A model generated the notes under the pieces. The model was given only the letters and a program-made list of their open reading frames with translations, did no database searches and was not told the DNA's origin. 38,694 bases of DNA from Methylophaga sp. (GTDB taxonomy: Bacteria > Pseudomonadota > Gammaproteobacteria > Nitrosococcales > Methylophagaceae): positions 1-38,694 of the forward strand of contig NZ_JAUSCC010000063.1 of the NCBI RefSeq assembly GCF_030651745.1. The letters are read 5' to 3'. The translations under genes were made by a program, and so were the position numbers. Within the stretch, counting starts at the first letter, position 1, and each line of letters begins with the position of its first letter. Shown piece after piece: positions 13,049 through 21,274 of this stretch.

Positions 13049-13492
13049 ATGACTCGGGCAACTAAACTGATTCCAGTAATCGAAATGGCCGGTCGAGAAA
13101 CAGATAAGGCCATGCAAAGCCTTGTTCAGGCCAATAACGTTTTAGAGCACGAACGCAATCAGCTCAACGATTTATTGCGCTATCGGGAAGAATATCTACA
13201 ACAATTTCGCCAAGGAGATGCGTTGCAGATGAGTGCACGCAAAGCCATTGACTTAAGATCATTTCTAGCTCAGTTAGATCACGCAATTCGTTTGCAGCAA
13301 AGTCATGTTGAACGCTGTTTTGTTCAAACCCAACAACAGCAGCAGTTATGGCTGAAAGCCCGCAACAAACAACGTTCAATTGAATCTCTCAAAGAGCGTT
13401 ATCAAACAGAAGACGAGCAACGCCAGCAAAAACAGGAACAACGACTGGCCGATGAACATACCGCCATGCTCTGGGCACGCAAACATAAATAA
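13049..13492 (+). CDS. fliJ: Flagellar export chaperone/stalk protein FliJ
   Basis: A small, highly charged coiled-coil protein (147 residues) that inserts into the FliI ring like the F1 gamma subunit. The sequence is rich in Gln, Glu, Arg and Leu, with heptad spacing throughout. Motifs such as RNQLNDLLRYREEYLQQF resemble known FliJ proteins. Identification relies on coiled-coil character, size and its position after fliI. It ends the fliE operon; a sigma-54 site begins 5 bases after its stop. Confidence 0.9.
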   Translation: MTRATKLIPVIEMAGRETDKAMQSLVQANNVLEHERNQLNDLLRYREEYLQQFRQGDALQMSARKAIDLRSFLAQLDHAIRLQQSHVERCFVQTQQQQQLWLKARNKQRSIESLKERYQTEDEQRQQKQEQRLADEHTAMLWARKHK

Positions 13493-13616: not shown

Positions 13617-13949
13617 GTGAAAACCAAAATGATGAATAAAACCATGACGACATTGGATTGTGGACAGCAGCTAAGCATTATCCAGCTTGAGCAATGGTAT
13701 TTGCGTTGTTTGAAAATAGTGCTCGCAGAAGAAAGTGTCTTGATCGATGTCAGCCGTATCCAAAAAATTGATACGGCAGCACTGCAATTACTTTATCAGT
13801 TCCATATACAGGCACAGCAGGTGGGAATTCAGGTGCTCTGGTCCGACATCAGTGAACACTTTCAGGATGCCATCAGCCTATCCGGATTGGTTTTTACGAT
13901 GGAGCATCAGGCTTCGTCAACAGGCATAAATGCAATGGAGAAAAACTAG
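13617..13949 (+). CDS. STAS-domain protein (anti-sigma antagonist-like)
   Basis: A 110-residue single-domain protein. Residues 10-105 fit a STAS fold: alternating strands and helices with VLIDVSRIQKIDTAALQLL, where the Thr/Ala pair stands at the position of the phosphorylatable Ser/Thr of SpoIIAA-type proteins. No partner anti-sigma kinase is encoded nearby. It starts the chemosensory run and ends one base before the CheY-like ATG. The start is unsure: GTG 13617 and ATGs at 13629 and 13632 are possible, none with a strong ribosome binding site. It may act as a scaffold or a phosphorylation target of the adjacent kinase; this is inference. Confidence 0.75.
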   Translation: MKTKMMNKTMTTLDCGQQLSIIQLEQWYLRCLKIVLAEESVLIDVSRIQKIDTAALQLLYQFHIQAQQVGIQVLWSDISEHFQDAISLSGLVFTMEHQASSTGINAMEKN

Positions 13950-13950
13950 A

Positions 13951-14313
13951 ATGGCCAGGATTTTAGTCGTGGATGACTCGCCTTCATTGAGACAAATGCT
14001 GCAAATTATTTTGCAAAATTCGGGTCACGATGTGATGTGCGCTGAGGATGGGAAACAGGCTATTGAAATGGTCTCAGAAGCACAGTTTGACATGATCTTA
14101 AGTGACTTTAATATGCCACAGCTGACGGGGCCTGAATTCATTTCGAAACTTCGTCAATTACCCCAGTATCGATTTACACCAGTCTTGCTGTTAACCACCG
14201 AAACGGACGAAGAGAAAAAACAGCTTGGCCGAGATGCCGGAGCCAGCGGTTGGCTGAAAAAGCCTTTTGATCCGGAACAGTTGGTGGTCACGGTTAATTC
14301 ATTGCTGAATTAA
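13951..14313 (+). CDS. CheY-like single-domain response regulator
   Basis: A stand-alone receiver domain of 120 residues. The acidic pair is Asp8/Asp9, the phosphoacceptor is Asp52 (LSDFNMP), the switch threonine is near residue 82 and the conserved lysine is in LKKPF (104). There is no output domain, so it acts by protein contact, probably phosphorylated by the CheA encoded next. Whether it binds the flagellar switch or another target such as the STAS protein cannot be told. The ATG at 13951 follows GGAG (13937-13940); an in-frame ATG at 13930 lies within the preceding gene. Confidence 0.9.
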   Translation: MARILVVDDSPSLRQMLQIILQNSGHDVMCAEDGKQAIEMVSEAQFDMILSDFNMPQLTGPEFISKLRQLPQYRFTPVLLLTTETDEEKKQLGRDAGASGWLKKPFDPEQLVVTVNSLLN

Positions 14314-14324
14314 TCTGGATACTG

Positions 14325-16214
14325 ATGATTCCTTCCTTATCTTCTGCATCGGCGGCTTTTCATGAAGAAGCGCTGGAAACGTTACGGCAAATTGAAGCGT
14401 GGGTCTTAACGTCACTGGAGACACCGTCAGCAGGAATGGATCAGCAACTGGAAACCTTGAGACTTTTACATTCTTTAAAAGGGACTGCCGCCAGTTTTGG
14501 GGATGAATCAATCGCTCAGGTTTGTCATGCCATAGAAAATGTTTTAGCTAATAAAACTCAGCTAACCGCCAAAGACAGTGAAGCATTGTTTATGGCAGTT
14601 GATTTTTGTCGACTCAGATTAAGTAACCCTCGGTTAACTGATGATGTCCCTGATGAGCAGCTGGATGATTGTCTCGCTAGATTGGATAGTCTGGCTGAGC
14701 ATAAGCACGTTTCAGTTAATACCAATAAAGATCAGGAATTAATTGGATCGGTTTGGCAAATTGATTTTGCACCCTATCCAGAATTTTTTGAAAATGGCCA
14801 TGATCCTTTGCGTATTATCAGGGCGCTGCGTACTTTAGGCCCGATAAAAGTCTCGGTATTTACCGAAAAACTGCCGGAATTTGCAGATTTTGATCCGTTC
14901 CAGTGCTATTTACGTTGGCAGATCACACTTAAAGCAGAGCTTGAATATAAACAGTTGACGGCTCAATTCGACTGGGTGAAGCACATCTGTGACGTATCGA
15001 TAGATATTTTGGCATTGCCTCAGCCCAAGCGGGTTATTGAGCCAAACCGTTATAAATTGAACGAGGCTAATCTGGAAGCTTTGCTTACGGTATCCCAAAA
15101 CTTACAATCCCAGTTACAACAGTCAACCGCCATTGCTCACCAGCTAAATCAGACCGATAAAACTCGTTTACTGCGACGTAACCATGCGATGAAGCGTCAG
15201 CAACAGCTGTTACAACAGCAATTGCTGCACATTGCTATGTGTCCGCTTGCTGATGCGTTTGCCAGGCTTCCCAGAATGGCTTTTGACTTGGCTAACAGGA
15301 CCGCTAAACCAGTGCAGCTGAAAATGGATATTGCTCCCATTGAATTGGATAGTTTCATTGTCAATTCGCTGATAGATCCGTTGACACATTTACTGCGCAA
15401 TGCGGTAGCACATGGAATTGAATCTGCTGAGCAGCGCCAACAACAAGGTAAACCCGTTACCAGTCAAATTCATATTACAGCTGAGCAAGTTGATGACTGG
15501 TTAGTGATTCGCTTTAGTGATGACGGTGCAGGGTTGGCCGAAGATAAAATCCTGGCCAAAGCCAAACAAATGGGGCTTCATGTTCAGGATTTATCTGATA
15601 AACAAAAAATCAGTGAATGGATTTTTCAATCAGGTTTTTCGACCTCTCAAGCAGTCGATGCTGTTTCCGGGAGAGGGGTTGGCTTGGATGTTGTTAAGCA
15701 ACATGTGACCGATTTGGCGGGGAACATTGAATTGGTTTCTAACCCAGGCAAAGGCTGTTGTTTTAATATCCAGATCCCTGTGTTGCAATCATTGATCGAT
15801 GTGCAGCTGATCCGCATAGATGATCAGACGCTCGCATTACCACTGATTAATTTAATCAATAGTTATTTATGGGATGAGAACCGGGTCGTTTGGCAGCAGG
15901 GCAAACGCTGGTTTGTTAGCGATGAGAATTATCACGTCCCATTGGTTGATATACGCAAATTTCTGCAATTGCCATATATGGAACGTGACCAACAGTCAGA
16001 TTCTATCGTGCTGGTTAATGTTGAAAAACGTTTTTTTGCACTACAGGTGGATAGTTTGGCGGAGCAGGTACAGTTGTTGGTTAAATCCTTGCGTCCGCAT
16101 TATCACCATGTAAATGGCATTAAAGGTATTGCGATATTACCTGACGGTGATTTGGCGTTATTGCTTGAACCGAACAAATTATTGATGTTGTTTGAAATGG
16201 TCGGTGACAAGTAA
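14325..16214 (+). CDS. cheA: Chemotaxis histidine kinase CheA
   Basis: Autophosphorylates on a histidine-phosphotransfer domain and passes phosphate to CheY-type receivers. 629 residues. P1 (about 10-125) has the site LLHSLKGTAASFG with His49. A P2-like region follows at about 140-230 (DPLRIIRALRTLG). A dimerisation segment at about 245-310 is unusually Gln-rich. The ATPase domain has its N-box near 353-365 (LTHLLRNAVAHGIES), DDGAG (399-403) and GRGVGLD (449-455). A CheW-like P5 domain runs from about 487 to the end. cheW follows after 2 bases. Its distance from the typical che operon suggests a dedicated second pathway. Confidence 0.93.
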   Translation: MIPSLSSASAAFHEEALETLRQIEAWVLTSLETPSAGMDQQLETLRLLHSLKGTAASFGDESIAQVCHAIENVLANKTQLTAKDSEALFMAVDFCRLRLSNPRLTDDVPDEQLDDCLARLDSLAEHKHVSVNTNKDQELIGSVWQIDFAPYPEFFENGHDPLRIIRALRTLGPIKVSVFTEKLPEFADFDPFQCYLRWQITLKAELEYKQLTAQFDWVKHICDVSIDILALPQPKRVIEPNRYKLNEANLEALLTVSQNLQSQLQQSTAIAHQLNQTDKTRLLRRNHAMKRQQQLLQQQLLHIAMCPLADAFARLPRMAFDLANRTAKPVQLKMDIAPIELDSFIVNSLIDPLTHLLRNAVAHGIESAEQRQQQGKPVTSQIHITAEQVDDWLVIRFSDDGAGLAEDKILAKAKQMGLHVQDLSDKQKISEWIFQSGFSTSQAVDAVSGRGVGLDVVKQHVTDLAGNIELVSNPGKGCCFNIQIPVLQSLIDVQLIRIDDQTLALPLINLINSYLWDENRVVWQQGKRWFVSDENYHVPLVDIRKFLQLPYMERDQQSDSIVLVNVEKRFFALQVDSLAEQVQLLVKSLRPHYHHVNGIKGIAILPDGDLALLLEPNKLLMLFEMVGDK

Positions 16215-16216
16215 AA

Positions 16217-16675
16217 ATGGCTCTGGAATCAAATTCAAATCAAGATATTTACCAAGTGATGATCCTCAATCACCAGCATTTTGCCGTTCCAGTTCAGAGT
16301 ATTGTCAGTGTGTTGCCACTGGAAAAAACTCTCAGTTTGCCCGACACACCAGATTGGCTAACGGGAGTTGTACATATTCGCAATGCAATAGTGCCCGTGC
16401 TTAACTTAAATTTGTTATTGAAAATGGACTCGATAGCTGATGAATCCGGGCATCCGTTACTTGTTTTATTACACCATCCGCAGGACTCTCAGCGTTGGCT
16501 GGCACTGTGCGTAAGCGATATCACTCAACTGATTGACACAAAAGAGTTGGATGGAATTGATTTCAGCTCATCGTTAAATCCATTGGTTAAACATGTCGTA
16601 GATATTGATTCACAACAACTGTATTTGCTTGATATCAGTAATTTATTTGAGCACTTAATGAGGGATAAAGGTTAA
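16217..16675 (+). CDS. cheW: CheW-like coupling protein
   Basis: A single CheW-fold domain of 152 residues that links receptors to CheA. The N-terminal strands include DIYQVMILNHQHFAVPVQSI, and WLTGVVHIRNAIVPVLNLNL is the canonical 'P.W..G....RG..VPVLDL' region, with Asn where Gly is usual (IRNAIV for IRGxxx). It lies between cheA and the ParA-like gene with gaps of 2-3 bases, implying one transcript. Confidence 0.9.
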   Translation: MALESNSNQDIYQVMILNHQHFAVPVQSIVSVLPLEKTLSLPDTPDWLTGVVHIRNAIVPVLNLNLLLKMDSIADESGHPLLVLLHHPQDSQRWLALCVSDITQLIDTKELDGIDFSSSLNPLVKHVVDIDSQQLYLLDISNLFEHLMRDKG

Positions 16676-16678
16676 TTA

Positions 16679-17395
16679 ATGGCGATGGATGGAGCAACAC
16701 GCATTATCGCTGTCATGAACCAGACGCATGATGTTGGTAAAACCACTATTACAGCAAATTTAGGGGTGATTCTGGCAGAAATGGGCTACCGGGTACTGAT
16801 GCTGGATTTGGATCCTCAAGCGGATTTAAGCCGTCAGTTTGAGGTACCGGAAACACAACCTGGCATGGATTGCTTGCTTAACGAGACAAGTCAGGCAAAA
16901 GAATTATTGCTGCCTTTAACCGAACGCCTCTCACTCATTGCAGCAGGCCCTGAGCTTGGCGTATTCGAGCAGCAAAAACACTCTGTTAAGCCGGGGTCAA
17001 AGCTGAAGCAATTACTTACTTCGACAATACAATCAGATGCAGATATTATTCTGATAGATTGTGCTGCGATATCAGGTTTATTAGGAACCAATGCAGTATT
17101 GGCAGCCACCGATATGTTAATTCCGGTTTCTGCAGAACATGGGGCTTTACGCGGAATGATAAAAATGTTGCCGGTATTACAACGCGTTTCAATGTTGAGA
17201 ACACAATCCTTACGGTTGTGGCTGTGTTTAAATAAATTGCCGGACGGTACTGATTTTGCCTATCAGTTCGGTAGTTTACTTACCCGGTATTTTCCGAAGC
17301 GAGTATTAAAAACGGTGATATACGACAATGAGTCTGCTAATCCTGCCGATTATCAATCTTTGGCAAATGACTTGCTGATGGGAAGAGCTGACTAA
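16679..17395 (+). CDS. ParA/MinD-family ATPase with an altered P-loop
   Basis: A 238-residue ParA-like ATPase. The fold is recognised from the N-terminal P-loop, the DLDPQAD motif (43-49) and a Walker B-like DIILIDCAA. The P-loop reads THDVGKTT (16-23) where the family has KGGxGKTT: the catalytic Lys21 is kept, but the signature lysine is replaced by Thr16. There is no N-terminal HTH, so it is not a plasmid ParA. In Rhodobacter, a ParA homologue (PpfA) positions cytoplasmic chemoreceptor clusters; a comparable job for the soluble receptor encoded next is my inference. Its stop overlaps the next ATG by one base. Confidence 0.85.
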   Translation: MAMDGATRIIAVMNQTHDVGKTTITANLGVILAEMGYRVLMLDLDPQADLSRQFEVPETQPGMDCLLNETSQAKELLLPLTERLSLIAAGPELGVFEQQKHSVKPGSKLKQLLTSTIQSDADIILIDCAAISGLLGTNAVLAATDMLIPVSAEHGALRGMIKMLPVLQRVSMLRTQSLRLWLCLNKLPDGTDFAYQFGSLLTRYFPKRVLKTVIYDNESANPADYQSLANDLLMGRAD

Positions 17396-18741
17396 TGGCT
17401 AAAAATGCACTACGACACTATCAGTTAAACGAGGCGGTTGGGTTGCAAGAACACGATATCATGCTGGTAGAACAGAATTTTGCTGCATTGATGGAATTCA
17501 GCGACGCATTAGCGGAACGTTTTTATCAACGCTTGTTTACCGAATACCCTGAGATCATGCCGTTATTTAAATCGGTAACCATTGAGGGGCAGCATAAAAA
17601 GCTTTTGGCATCCATGGTGTTACTGATTCAGCATTTGCGTGATTCAGAAATGATTGAGGATTACCTGCAAGGTTTGGGAGCTCGTCATCAGCAGTACGGT
17701 GTTGAGGCATCTCATTATGAGGCGTTTATTGAAAACTGGTTGTCGGTAATTGCCGAATTTTCTGATCAAAAGTGGGATGAGCAATTACAGCAAGCCTGGC
17801 GGAATATACTTGAATATGTCGCTGAGTTGATGCAACGTCCAGTGCTTCAAGTCACTGAGAGCGGTGTTGAATATCAAACAAATAAAAACACTACACCAGA
17901 GTATGTACTTACATCATTAGCCGTTGCACAAACAGCCACCCCAATGCTGATAATCGATTCGACATTGGTGATCCGCTATCTTAATGCGGCCGCGGAAAGT
18001 CTGTTGACTGCTCATCAAACCGAACTTGAGCAGATGTTTCCCAATATAAACATCAACAGTTTGATTGGTTATCAAATGCAAAACGTCATGGACAAATTAC
18101 CCTTCTCTGGCGATTTGTTCAGCAATTTTGAACAACTACCACAAAGTTTTGATTTGCATAATGCGGTGATCGATCTGAGGTTAACCATTTCAGTTCTGTA
18201 TCAGCAAGATGAGGTAATGGGATTTTTGCTGGAATGTTATCCGCAGACTGCACCGCTGAATAATAAACCGCAAGCGGCGGCTGGTTCCGCGACCATCACT
18301 CCGTCTCCAAATGTTTTACCAGCACTTGAAAAAGCCTTATATGAAGTTCACTTGCACAATATCCATTTGACCAGCATGTTGCAGGAAATTGATGACGCGG
18401 TATTCGAAGCCAGTTTACTGGCATTAAATTGTTCTGTTGAAGCGGCAAAATTGGGTGAAGAAGCACGTCAGTTACGTGATTTTTCGATGGAAATTCGGGT
18501 ACTCAATCAACAGCTAAGTCAATTGCTGCAACCCTTAAAAATTCATTCTGGACAACAACAGCAACAACTCAAAAACAGTATTGAACTCGCCCAGCAATTG
18601 CAACGTGATTTGTTGCAGAATCAGCATTTACAAGAATCCCGAAGCTACTATTCCATCGAACAGATAAGCCAACAATTAATTCGACAAACAGAAGCTTTGA
18701 CTCAGCTTGCAAGTGTTATCAGCCAAAAGTCCTCACCGTGA
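17395..18741 (+). CDS. Soluble haem-globin/PAS sensor with degenerate MCP tip
   Basis: 448 residues with no membrane segment. Residues 18-150 form a globin with the flavohaemoglobin-type haem pocket: Tyr44 (ERFYQRLF) as B10, Gln66 as E7, His98 (ARHQQYGV) as the proximal ligand, and Tyr108. Residues 168-282 resemble a PAS domain (ATPMLIIDSTLVIRYLNAAA). Residues 311-380 resemble the receptor hairpin tip: LLALNCSVEAAKLGEEARQL parallels the canonical [20 protein letters not shown], but the second half of the motif is degenerate. A Gln-rich coiled coil ends the protein. I infer an oxygen- or NO-sensing cytoplasmic receptor for the neighbouring CheA/CheW. Confidence 0.82.
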   Translation: MAKNALRHYQLNEAVGLQEHDIMLVEQNFAALMEFSDALAERFYQRLFTEYPEIMPLFKSVTIEGQHKKLLASMVLLIQHLRDSEMIEDYLQGLGARHQQYGVEASHYEAFIENWLSVIAEFSDQKWDEQLQQAWRNILEYVAELMQRPVLQVTESGVEYQTNKNTTPEYVLTSLAVAQTATPMLIIDSTLVIRYLNAAAESLLTAHQTELEQMFPNININSLIGYQMQNVMDKLPFSGDLFSNFEQLPQSFDLHNAVIDLRLTISVLYQQDEVMGFLLECYPQTAPLNNKPQAAAGSATITPSPNVLPALEKALYEVHLHNIHLTSMLQEIDDAVFEASLLALNCSVEAAKLGEEARQLRDFSMEIRVLNQQLSQLLQPLKIHSGQQQQQLKNSIELAQQLQRDLLQNQHLQESRSYYSIEQISQQLIRQTEALTQLASVISQKSSP

Positions 18742-18823: not shown

Positions 18824-20041
18824 ATGACCCAGTTGCTGAACCTTCCGGTAATTAATGCCCCCACCGGCAATAATGCTGATAAACCGGTTACCGCCACTAC
18901 AAACAGTAAGGATAATGAGGCTTTTGCATCTGAGTTAGACCGTCGCGTCAATGACACACAACCGCGTGGAAAGGATAAAACAGCCAAAGCGGATTCAACT
19001 CAGGAAGTGAAGACAGAAGATAAAGATAAAACGACCAAAGCGGAAAAAGCTGAAACGAAAGACGGCAAAAAGTTGCCGCCCGAAAAGTCTGATACCGACG
19101 CTGAAACAACGGATGGCGAGGCGGCAATAAAAATGACTGAACAAGCCAATCCACTACCGGTTTTATCCTTGGCAGATTCAAGTGAGACCGCTGTTGATAA
19201 AAAAATCTCTGATGTTGTTGCATCGGGCAACAAGACTGTCGTTCCTACTATTTCAACGGATACTGGCAAAGCGAATCAGACTGCTCAGGGACAAACAAAT
19301 ACTGCAGAGCTGTCGGCGACTTCAATTCGTGCGGACATCCTTCAGGCGTTGCAAAAACAAGGTACAGAGGGTGAATCTGTCGCGACAGAAAAATTCAAAT
19401 CAATGATGCAAAACGCGGGTAAAATTCCACAACAAAGCAATGTGGTCAGTGCAGAAGTGATTGCCTCAATGCGTCAGCTAGAGCCGCAAACGGAACGAAG
19501 CTCAGCCACAACATTGAGTAATCCTTTGGTGTTTTCAACAACAACGGGGACGGCCACACCACCCGTAGCAGCGGCCACTGTTGGCAGCCCGCCTGTCGCA
19601 TTGGATATTCAACCGCAATTGAATAATGCTGCCTGGGCTCGAGTAATGAGCAGTCGGGTAGTATGGATGGCGCGAGAAGGTGTGCAACAAGCTGAATTAA
19701 GACTGAATCCCGCCCATCTAGGGCCGGTAGAAGTTAGATTGAGCATGCAAAATGAACAGACAAGTGTCACTTTTATTGCTTCGAATGCGGCCGCAAGAGA
19801 TGCTTTAGAGCAGGCTCTGCCTCGCTTACGTGAAAGCTTTATCGAAAATGGTTTAGCACTCAATCATGCCGAAGTTAGTCATCAGGAGCAATCTTCACAA
19901 GGCTCTGAGCAAGATGAACAATTGGGTGAAGATAGTAATACAGCTCAAGTTATCGTTGAAGTGGACGATAATGATGATGAAAGTACACATTTATCAGACG
20001 TTTCAACAGATAATAGTGTTGGTGTCAGTGTATTTGCTTGA
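18824..20041 (+). CDS. fliK: Flagellar hook-length control protein FliK
   Basis: The ruler that sets hook length and switches export specificity. 405 residues. The N-terminal two thirds is a low-complexity, unfolded region rich in Lys, Asp, Thr and Glu (about 20-110) and then Ala/Thr/Gln. The conserved C-terminal domain (about 265-350) contains EGVQQAELRLNPAHLGPVEV and the substrate-switch region, followed by an acidic tail. AAGGAAATGAT precedes the ATG. Its normal companions fliLMNOPQR are not here; an MCP follows instead. Confidence 0.92.
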   Translation: MTQLLNLPVINAPTGNNADKPVTATTNSKDNEAFASELDRRVNDTQPRGKDKTAKADSTQEVKTEDKDKTTKAEKAETKDGKKLPPEKSDTDAETTDGEAAIKMTEQANPLPVLSLADSSETAVDKKISDVVASGNKTVVPTISTDTGKANQTAQGQTNTAELSATSIRADILQALQKQGTEGESVATEKFKSMMQNAGKIPQQSNVVSAEVIASMRQLEPQTERSSATTLSNPLVFSTTTGTATPPVAAATVGSPPVALDIQPQLNNAAWARVMSSRVVWMAREGVQQAELRLNPAHLGPVEVRLSMQNEQTSVTFIASNAAARDALEQALPRLRESFIENGLALNHAEVSHQEQSSQGSEQDEQLGEDSNTAQVIVEVDDNDDESTHLSDVSTDNSVGVSVFA

Positions 20042-20080: not shown

Positions 20081-21274
20081 GTGTTTAAGTTAGAGAATTA
20101 TTCGCTGAGAAAACGCATGTATATCGTAGCCGGGTTAGGCATTATCGCTTTGTTGCTGCTGGCTGGTTTGATGTTTTACATGGAGCTGAATGAATTCAGT
20201 TCGATGCAACAGCTTAAAGTCGTTGCTGGATTTGTTGTCATTGGTAGTATTTTTATCATGTTCATGGCCCACGTCATTGGGCGGTTTGGTGATAAACGGG
20301 CAACCACCCTAGTAAACGGTATCCAGAATATTAAAAAAGGTGATCTGACGCAAAAAATCGCCATCTCCGGCAAAAGTGATTTCAGCTGGATGGCATTTGA
20401 ACTGGACAGTGCCCGTAAAAATGTCGCCAATCTTGTACACACATTAATCGGTGGTGTGAGTCAGCTGAACACTGCGACACAAAATATGACGATTATCAGC
20501 AAGGAAACGGTGACTGGCGTATTAAAGCAACAGGAAGAAACCGATCAAGTGGCCACAGCCATGAACGAAATGACGGCTTCTGTTCAGGAAGTTGCACGAA
20601 CAGCGACCAATGCAGCCGAAGCAGCGCGCAATGCTGATAATGAAGCAAAAGCCGGTAAGCAGGTGGTATTGGAAACCATGCGCTCAATCGATACTTTAGC
20701 CAGCGAGGTTGAAAAAGCCGCCGTCACATTAAGTGAGCTTGAAGCGGATATCGGTAATATCGGTGCGATAGTTGATGTTATTCGCGGTATAACCGAACAA
20801 ACTAATTTATTGGCGCTGAATGCGGCCATTGAAGCTGCCCGTGCAGGTGAGCATGGTCGTGGCTTTGCGGTTGTTGCTGACGAAGTGCGTACCTTGGCCG
20901 CCAGAACGCAATCTTCAACTCACGAAATTGAAGAAATGGTGGAACGCTTGCAGCAAGGTGCCCGTGCTGCGGTGAAAGTGATGAATGAAAGCCGTGAAAG
21001 TGCCAAAACCAGTGTGCAAAAAGCGGCAAGTGCCGGTTCAGCACTTGATTCGATTACTGCGATGATCTCCACTATGGATGAAATGAGTACGCAGATCTCA
21101 AATGCAGCAAACGAACAAAGCTCAGTTGCCGAGGATATCAATCGCGGTATCGTGAATATCAGCCAGATCGCAGATCATACTGCAGATGGTGCCAGAGCGA
21201 CTTCCGAAGCAGTGGATACCTTGAGCAGTCTGTCAGCTCAATTGCAAGATGCTTCTTCCAAGTTCAAGGTTTAA
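20081..21274 (+). CDS. Membrane chemoreceptor (MCP) with almost no periplasmic domain
   Basis: 397 residues. Two membrane helices lie near 13-32 and 43-63, separated by only about 10 residues, so no periplasmic ligand pocket exists. A HAMP-like segment follows at about 64-120 (KKGDLTQKI), then a full cytoplasmic signalling domain with the conserved tip [20 protein letters not shown]. No CheR/CheB-binding pentapeptide ends the protein. The start is GTG at 20081, with GGAGA at 20069-20073. It probably responds to internal or membrane signals. It shares a transcript with fliK and is closed by the terminator at 21295. Confidence 0.92.

Follow-up and report, generated by a model that had tools for sequence, protein, structure and literature searches.

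How much of a chemoreceptor can be lost before it ceases to serve its kinase? The question is raised by a gene in a 38,694-nucleotide stretch of Methylophaga sp. DNA (NCBI RefSeq assembly GCF_030651745.1, contig NZ_JAUSCC010000063.1; hereafter the window), whose short and, as read from its sequence, soluble product joins a globin domain, a PAS domain and a segment resembling the tip of a chemoreceptor. The gene is genuine, is conserved in Methylophaga and evolves under purifying selection, and it very probably encodes a reduced receptor of the F7 (stage-1 type) chemosensory class. The best explanation overall, which we consider fairly likely, is a reduced F7 receptor that passes a gas signal to CheA without adaptation.

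Gene order and longer relatives

Within a run of flagellar genes, the window holds fliJ, STAS, CheY, CheA, CheW, a ParA-like gene, the receptor, fliK and a methyl-accepting chemotaxis protein (MCP), in that order (Table 1), and the ATG of the receptor gene overlaps the stop of the ParA-like gene. STAS, cheY, cheA, cheW and an aer2-like receptor stand in the order published for F7 stage 1 by Ortega et al. 2020 (PMC7184735, in the portion of the text available), with ParA sitting between cheW and the receptor. The relatives likewise follow the published order, except that ParA replaces one listed second cheW-like gene. The rest of the set (cheR, cheD, cheB, an McpA-like receptor and a second STAS) was found between the receptor and fliK neither in the window nor in any of the six other loci of Methylophaga type (L001-L005 and L085, seven loci with the window). 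In all seven, the receptor gene has an open frame and CheA retains the P1 histidine and the N, G1 and G2 boxes; Pfam reported no dimerisation domain for the window CheA (14325..16214). The contig scan of genomes yielded five orthologue loci, four titled Methylophaga and one from a gammaproteobacterial metagenome-assembled genome, and 13 of the 27 homologous proteins found were 448-453 amino acids long and 64-91% identical.

The order-level survey covered 63 genomes, of which 52 gave a match at E <= 0.001, in some cases only through other globins or receptors. The short form was present in seven of the 63 (G001-G005, G043 and G052). Forty loci were read, comprising 35 fetched wider loci and five scan loci: seven held the short form, 32 of the other 33 held a receptor of 583-1039 amino acids (some cut by contig ends), and L091 held one of 361 amino acids. 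Twenty related loci with cheR/cheB encode a receptor of 670-1039 amino acids at the same place, typically composed of the globin, an Aer2-type PAS and a full signalling bundle with a WDEF or WEEF end. CheR or CheB follows the receptor in these loci; CheD and a second MCP usually accompany it ahead of fliK, and a second STAS does so in some. The Pfam check of the longer gene cluster was made on one locus, L066.

The missing parts of the receptor match the missing genes of the cluster. Every one of the 20 order-level loci with cheR/cheB has the CheR-binding pentapeptide at the receptor end, as against one of the 16 that reach fliK without them, the window included. The sole exception, L072, belongs to a genome with a second F7 cluster and CheR elsewhere. 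These counts omit the contig-end loci L067, L073, L074, L086 and L097, of which L074 has the pentapeptide; L088, ending in FFEFGRE, was recoded as lacking it despite a pattern match, and L092 and L093 were counted as cheR-bearing. At class level, the N-terminus, globin and PAS of the L075 receptor served as query, with at least 120 of 369 genomes matching at E <= 1e-10, and 40 loci in 38 genomes (L109-L148) were chosen from rows spanning globin to PAS. The pentapeptide occurred in all 33 loci with cheR and in three (L132, L136, L148) of the seven without cheR in the stretch read; the other four were L115, L131, L144 and L147, and L115, L147 and L148 lie near contig ends. In Pseudomonas aeruginosa, according to the part of PMC7698151 consulted, the pentapeptide is bound only by CheR2 and CheB2, which belong to that pathway.

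On an unrooted tree of 40 rows, with L080 left out, the cheR state changes six times, at least five of them on supported branches. Among five supported independent pairs (averaged over random pairings), the two characters changed together in 4.0, in opposite directions in 0 and without difference in 1.0. A Fisher test of the association, which ignores kinship, gave 2.9e-9. Loss rather than gain is the direction preferred on grounds of parsimony and of the F7 gene set as published, since an unrooted tree does not decide between them. The arm that follows the tip asparagine varies in the same manner: it spans 179-200 residues in the 20 cheR/cheB loci, whereas 13 of 15 fetched loci that lack these genes have 99-156, the exceptions being L072 (184) and L087 (177), while that of the window receptor has 103 residues and ends in ISQKSSP. 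The window receptor is without the signalling bundle, the pentapeptide and the PAS haem histidine. The long methylation helices are indeed lacking, as the sequence-only reading had stated, the linker standing where longer relatives have the bundle. Its proposal of a stripped-down haem chemoreceptor is likewise well supported by the longer forms at the same place and, as far as haem is concerned, by the conservation of a predicted haem histidine described below.

Receptor tip and selective constraint

With N345 set to Tsr N381, residues R358, E366, R368 and L370 correspond to Tsr R394, E402, R404 and L406. The motifs LLALN (341-345) and VEAA (348-351) were present as earlier claimed, as were E366, R368 and L370 in the register of the tip; a third motif, given as GEE..R, proved to be GEEAR (354-358), with GEE and the arginine in place and one residue between them. 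An ungapped match of 41 residues to the tips of relatives had a z of 12.3 against 2000 shuffles of residues 300-448, with 16-17 of 41 positions identical in six of the 16 relatives that make up the profile, and the nearest known tip by sequence was that of Tsr (1qu7). Tsr R394, E402 and R404 make strong contacts with CheW when the E. coli core unit is simulated (PMC6954272, in the part consulted); D107 of E. coli CheW had no certain alignment position in the window CheW. Their equivalents are retained in all seven Methylophaga-type loci, and as aligned, the kept surface is the kinase-facing segment, which is strongly preserved. The same positions read S, E and Q in L084, of a sister lineage, and in P0017, and S, E and K in P0018. 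The rule is not strict: L072 keeps all three contacts though its locus is without cheA and cheW (the second cluster lying elsewhere), and so does L091, where CheA is truncated.

Constraint was measured as the ratio of nonsynonymous to synonymous substitution rates (dN/dS) by the Nei-Gojobori method (NG86) over seven pairs, the tip values coming from six pairs with usable dS. The tip region (residues 309-395) had the lowest ratios of the protein, 0.00-0.04, against 0.05-0.13 in the globin, 0.04-0.17 in the PAS, 0.28-1.6 in the linker (285-308) and 0.05-0.42 in the tail (six pairs). The three pairs closest to the window had NG86 dS of 0.5-0.9 in globin, PAS and tip, and dS was unusable in parts of L003-L004. 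The Yang-Nielsen method (YN00), where computed, gave higher ratios (tip 0.05-0.09, globin 0.10-0.23) with the same ranking. The tip does diverge from the MCP consensus, but because it is the region of lowest dN/dS, the term degenerate, used of it before, is inapt. Between the window and L001 and L002, the neighboring genes had ratios of 0.08-0.09 (ParA), 0.06-0.07 (CheY), 0.12 (CheA), 0.19-0.23 (CheW), 0.14 (STAS) and 0.025 (FliI).

A score under the MCP cut-off and the absence of several parts of the longer form are what would be seen in a decaying remnant with no present function. Such a remnant is very improbable here, given the frame open in seven of seven loci, the ratio of 0.10-0.16 for the whole gene (four pairs) and that of the tip, and a pseudogene was rejected on the same ratios.

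The near-identical short receptors P0015 and P0008 differ in that P0015 is without 21 residues spanning the tip, by a real deletion or an assembly fault.

Sensor domains and ParA

The globin pocket was earlier described as of flavohaemoglobin type rather than that of classic HemAT, and this description held. In the alignment to 3s1i (E 6e-13), residues Y44, Q66, H98 and Y108, which we take to be helix positions B10, E7, F8 and G5, stand opposite Y, Q, H and Y. The Globin profile PF00042 matched at E 2.4e-16 with 60.7 bits, whereas Protoglobin, which we take as the globin family of HemAT, reached 24.0 bits under a cut-off of 25. Among 47 aligned receptors, H98, the putative proximal haem histidine, was conserved in 47, Q66 in 46, Y44 in 45 and Y108 in 39. 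The nearest globin by sequence was 3wfw (fused to Roadblock/LC7), followed by 3s1i and 3ubc; by fold, the nearest were 3s1i (TM-score 0.93 by target length, second model) and neuroglobins. No FAD/NAD reductase domain of the flavohaemoglobin kind was matched by Pfam at the C-terminus of the receptor, and the NCBIfam flavohaemoprotein model matched residues 17-146 only.

The joining of a globin to a receptor part, together with the Protoglobin score, would also be expected of a HemAT-like globin-coupled sensor that acquired a PAS. The stronger PF00042 score, the nearest folds and the longer relatives with Aer2-type PAS and F7 gene order leave that origin scarcely any probability, and a relation to HemAT was rejected.

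The PAS domain, weakly matched by Pfam, is of Aer2 type: 6ceq is its nearest relative by sequence, and the top Foldseek match of the second structural model is 4hi4, the Aer2 PAS (target TM 0.82). Its haem histidine is replaced by M232 and its conserved tryptophan by C281. The histidine, matched to PaAer2 H234 as the first histidine of FHxNPxHQ from the chain offset, is missing in all 11 short forms aligned (M, I, A, S or G in the ten others); in 36 non-short receptors the column holds H in 23, a gap in eight and another residue in five. No HAMP domain was matched in the window receptor up to E 1, while HAMP_2 scored 23.3 bits in L066 (cut-off 24.3) and 61.3 bits in L109.

In fuller systems, the receptor often starts with a motif such as MGDDPLAWL. 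The window receptor is without DPLAW, and its ParA has lost the signature lysine (QTHDVGKT). Across 39 order-level loci with a readable ParA Walker A and a readable receptor start, the window included, KGG and the motif occurred together in 23, neither in 14, KGG alone in two (L069, L074) and the motif alone in none. Three independent pairs, which give little power, changed together in 1.9, in opposite directions in 0 and without difference in 1.1 (random pairings). At class level, DPL[AS]W[LMI] was found near the start of the protein directly downstream of ParA in 18 of 19 loci with ParA, the exception being L138, and in none of the 21 loci without ParA, several of them contig-cut and four (L131, L132, L136, L144) showing no che genes nearby (Fisher 1.7e-10, kinship ignored). 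The 18 bearers were 13 receptors, two globin-match proteins of 313-315 amino acids and three STAS-match proteins of 182-187 amino acids; Pfam checks showed one of the former to be globin plus STAS and covered two of the latter. Since the motif occurs on receptors, globin-STAS and STAS proteins after ParA, it follows ParA and not the receptor, and DPLAW may be a ParA-docking peptide. Literature text with DPLAW included no chemotaxis paper, as judged by titles. Of 206 species, 77 are reported to carry a PpfA homologue in a che operon (PMC2829493, in the part consulted).

The protein at L122:13278-13835 is an example of the motif downstream of ParA. A basic N-terminus as the ParA contact of the window receptor was considered and rejected, as the net charge before the globin is 0 to -3 in the seven Methylophaga-type loci and L084, and +10 to -7 in others.

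Proposed signal path and its alternatives

The receptor probably still passes information on oxygen or nitric oxide into a pathway no longer able to adapt. In the proposed path, O2 or NO would bind at the globin haem only, and the PAS, without its haem histidine, would transmit or stabilise the change in the globin. Because a disordered linker replaces HAMP and the bundle, the signal would probably not travel as a twist of a coiled coil; rather, the C-terminal helix would change in its dimerisation or exposure. The tip surface, being preserved, would then raise or lower CheA activity via CheW, CheA would phosphorylate the adjacent CheY, and the STAS protein would be the likely output partner. 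A stress-response link has been proposed for other F7 systems: the abstract of Ortega et al. 2020 (PMC7184735) claims evidence for such a role, and Shewanella Che1, termed F7, may act on RpoS (PMC9855816, in the part consulted). In the absence of methylation, the output would be expected to follow the gas level of the moment rather than how that level varies with time. Whether gas-to-CheA signalling has itself been kept we judge to be evenly balanced.

Several observations weigh against this account. The MCP profile PF00015 matched the window receptor beyond chance (E 2.8e-6) but with 27.7 bits, below its cut-off of 34.6, and of four orthologues two were over the cut-off (37.3, 34.6) and two were not (33.2, 31.2). 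The hairpin glycines, earlier said to be lacking, are partly lost: one of three is kept (G354, Tsr G390), and two are replaced (A357, Q359). Tip residues F396 and V398 of Tsr read L and D in the window. The CheW partner of E402 (R40 in E. coli) is L or F in Methylophaga-type CheWs and K in most relatives. The long arm of L087 stands at a locus without cheR, cheD or cheB, and the sign test on the independent pairs gave p 0.125, which with so few pairs could not reach 0.05. Outside the cluster, one or two CheR matches of any class occur in each of the seven short-form genomes, and the cell is therefore not devoid of CheR. At the L084 locus, cheA, cheW, cheY and STAS are absent but ParA and the receptor are still neighbors, so that part of the use of the receptor may not need CheA and CheW. 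Finally, no antiparallel hairpin at 334-375, the fold expected of a receptor tip and one whose absence had earlier been named as a refutation, appeared in either AlphaFold2 model; both give one continuous helix there, but both are monomers of moderate confidence and lack a canonical receptor as control.

The first model (18 alignment rows) had a predicted local distance difference test score (pLDDT) of 53 and a predicted template modelling score (pTM) of 0.34, with helices at 307-408 and 414-444 and pLDDT of about 58-69 in 334-375. The second (45 rows) had a pLDDT of 69.6 and again a pTM of 0.34, with values of about 74-89 in the globin from residue 21, 69-80 in the PAS, below 50 in the linker and 72-76 in 334-375. 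The C-terminal part may be one straight coiled coil, in which case the protein would be a scaffold or switch under haem control instead of an array receptor, which we hold possible but rather unlikely. A continuous helix was predicted from 307 to 408 and from 307 to 445, the latter although 28 of the 45 rows were not of the short form, and the two lost glycines agree with it. On the other side, the tip aligns without gaps to the hairpin family and keeps its CheW-contact residues. A shift in hydrophobic heptad phase (at 102.9 degrees per residue) of -62 degrees in Methylophaga-type rows, against -8 in 16 longer relatives, is indecisive between hairpin and straight helix. Improbable in our view is the further proposal that, once released from methylation, pentapeptide tethering and docking to ParA, the tip exchanged its array-forming hairpin for a straight, strongly constrained coiled coil, by which the lone globin haem would set CheA without arrays or adaptation; if true, a chemotaxis kinase would have been turned into an ordinary gas-level sensor.

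L084 also bears on the proposal that the protein acts mainly with ParA, in positioning, or as a gas-binding protein, the link to CheA and CheW being vestigial. Elsewhere in the L084 assembly, which may be incomplete, only two CheAs were found, and their distance is similar to that of the two further CheAs of M. muralis, as that proposal would allow. CheA, CheW and CheY of Methylophaga are under purifying selection, however, and the DPLAW motif and the ParA lysine that are paired in fuller systems are both absent here; the tip of L084 has also lost two CheW contacts, which fits a tip that works for CheW in those lineages where CheW remains. A mainly ParA-linked or gas-binding role is consequently rather improbable, and signalling to CheA by a reduced F7 receptor remains the preferred account.

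Among known systems, the closest are the F7 receptors of Aer2/McpB type in P. aeruginosa and V. cholerae (PMC7184735, available text), which share the Aer2-type PAS, the tip and the place in the order STAS-cheY-cheA-cheW-receptor. The window receptor adds an N-terminal globin and is without HAMP, the methylation bundle, the pentapeptide and the PAS haem histidine, and its cluster is without cheR, cheD and cheB. The longer globin-Aer2 receptors (L066-L100 in the order, L109-L148 in the class) share its neighbors and are 28-50% identical over the matched part of the globin (-PAS). They measure 583-1192 amino acids, except for L091 and contig-cut cases, and have the full tip consensus, the pentapeptide where cheR is present and DPLAW in most that follow a KGG-type ParA. 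YfmS of Bacillus subtilis is a short soluble receptor working with CheW; no sensor part in common with the window receptor was seen, and the YfmS-CheW model 9a72 gave a weak, helix-only fold match to the second model (root mean square deviation 44). HemAT presumably has a globin of another family and no PAS. It shares with the window receptor a globin and a receptor signalling part (PMC13401364, in the part consulted). TlpT and TlpC of Rhodobacter sphaeroides, with PpfA, are cytoplasmic receptors beside a ParA as here, and TlpC lacks HAMP and the methylation region; no globin is reported there in the available part of PMC3964821, and here the ParA lysine and the N-terminal motif of the receptor are absent.

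No literature joining globin, chemotaxis and Methylophaga was found, and the papers listed for receptors without methylation sites, judged from titles and the starts of abstracts, include none on a receptor of this kind. A globin-bearing F7 receptor was not described in the portions of the literature surveyed, and the words Globin, STAS and Methylophaga do not occur in the main text of PMC7184735. The short form offers a natural experiment on which receptor part serves which partner. In several lineages, absence of cheR, cheD and cheB goes with loss of the pentapeptide and, mostly, with a shorter post-tip arm; the one lineage seen to lack cheA and cheW at its locus has lost two of the three CheW-contact residues. 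The system makes testable the control of CheA by a receptor without HAMP or methylation helices, and DPLAW is a short candidate peptide by which ParA may position F7 arrays.

Table 1. Features of the window and the basis of each assignment.
Feature	Position	Strand	Basis
fliJ, upstream border	13049..13492	+	position after fliI; homology across loci
STAS protein (anti-sigma antagonist type)	13617..13949	+	sequence reading; position and homology to STAS open reading frames of relatives
CheY-type receiver	13930..14313	+	PF00072 E 3.1e-28; motifs VVDDS, SD(59)F, KKPF
CheA	14325..16214	+	Hpt, ATPase and CheW-like domains; P1 His, N, G1, G2 boxes kept
CheW	16217..16675	+	PF01584 E 2.8e-18
ParA-like ATPase	16679..17395	+	AAA_31 E 1.2e-26; Walker A QTHDVGKT instead of QKGGVGKT
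Globin-PAS-receptor-tip protein, 448 amino acids (reduced Aer2-type receptor)	17395..18741	+	open reading frame; orthologues; whole-gene dN/dS
Globin domain, residues 18-152 (limits set by us)	17446..17850	+	PF00042 at 42-143; 3s1i fold match; H98
Aer2-type PAS, residues 171-284	17905..18246	+	6ceq E 4.7e-5; 4hi4 best Foldseek match
Linker, residues 285-306 (HAMP and methylation bundle there in longer forms)	18247..18312	+	pLDDT <50 at 286-304
Single predicted helix, residues 307-445	18313..18729	+	AlphaFold2 second model, block pLDDT 52-76
Former receptor tip, residues 334-374, with R358, E366, R368 (Tsr R394, E402, R404)	18394..18516	+	alignment; dN/dS
fliK, downstream border	18824..20041	+	PF02120 E 1e-26

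Related clusters showed further variation. The genome of L101 (G046:C11) has a second F7 cluster composed of STAS, CheY, CheA, CheW, an Aer2-like receptor with a WEEF end, CheR, CheB and CheD, and its fliJ-fliK copy is without cheA, cheW and cheR/cheD/cheB. As for the separate F6 system that goes with F7 stage 1, M. muralis (G002) has another cluster, L102, with CheY, CheA, CheB, a KGGVGKT ParA and CheW, known from gene content. In L070, L078, L083 and L088, the CheA open reading frames (539-588 amino acids) have lost the P1 histidine, N box and G2 box as aligned, with the frame open; these loci are also without cheR, cheD and cheB and are apparently kinase-dead F7 remnants. At L091:7924-11202, a CheA of about 301 amino acids (a CheW-like end and a middle piece) stands beside CheW and ParA, and the receptor there is a globin-MCP without PAS that keeps DPLAWL. 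The C-terminus of the L067 receptor, at a contig end, resembles translated sequencing adapter, and that contig end is doubtful. In the window, the MCP at 20081-21274 has two hydrophobic stretches near its N-terminus with little between them, and an MCP follows fliK in reduced and fuller clusters alike.

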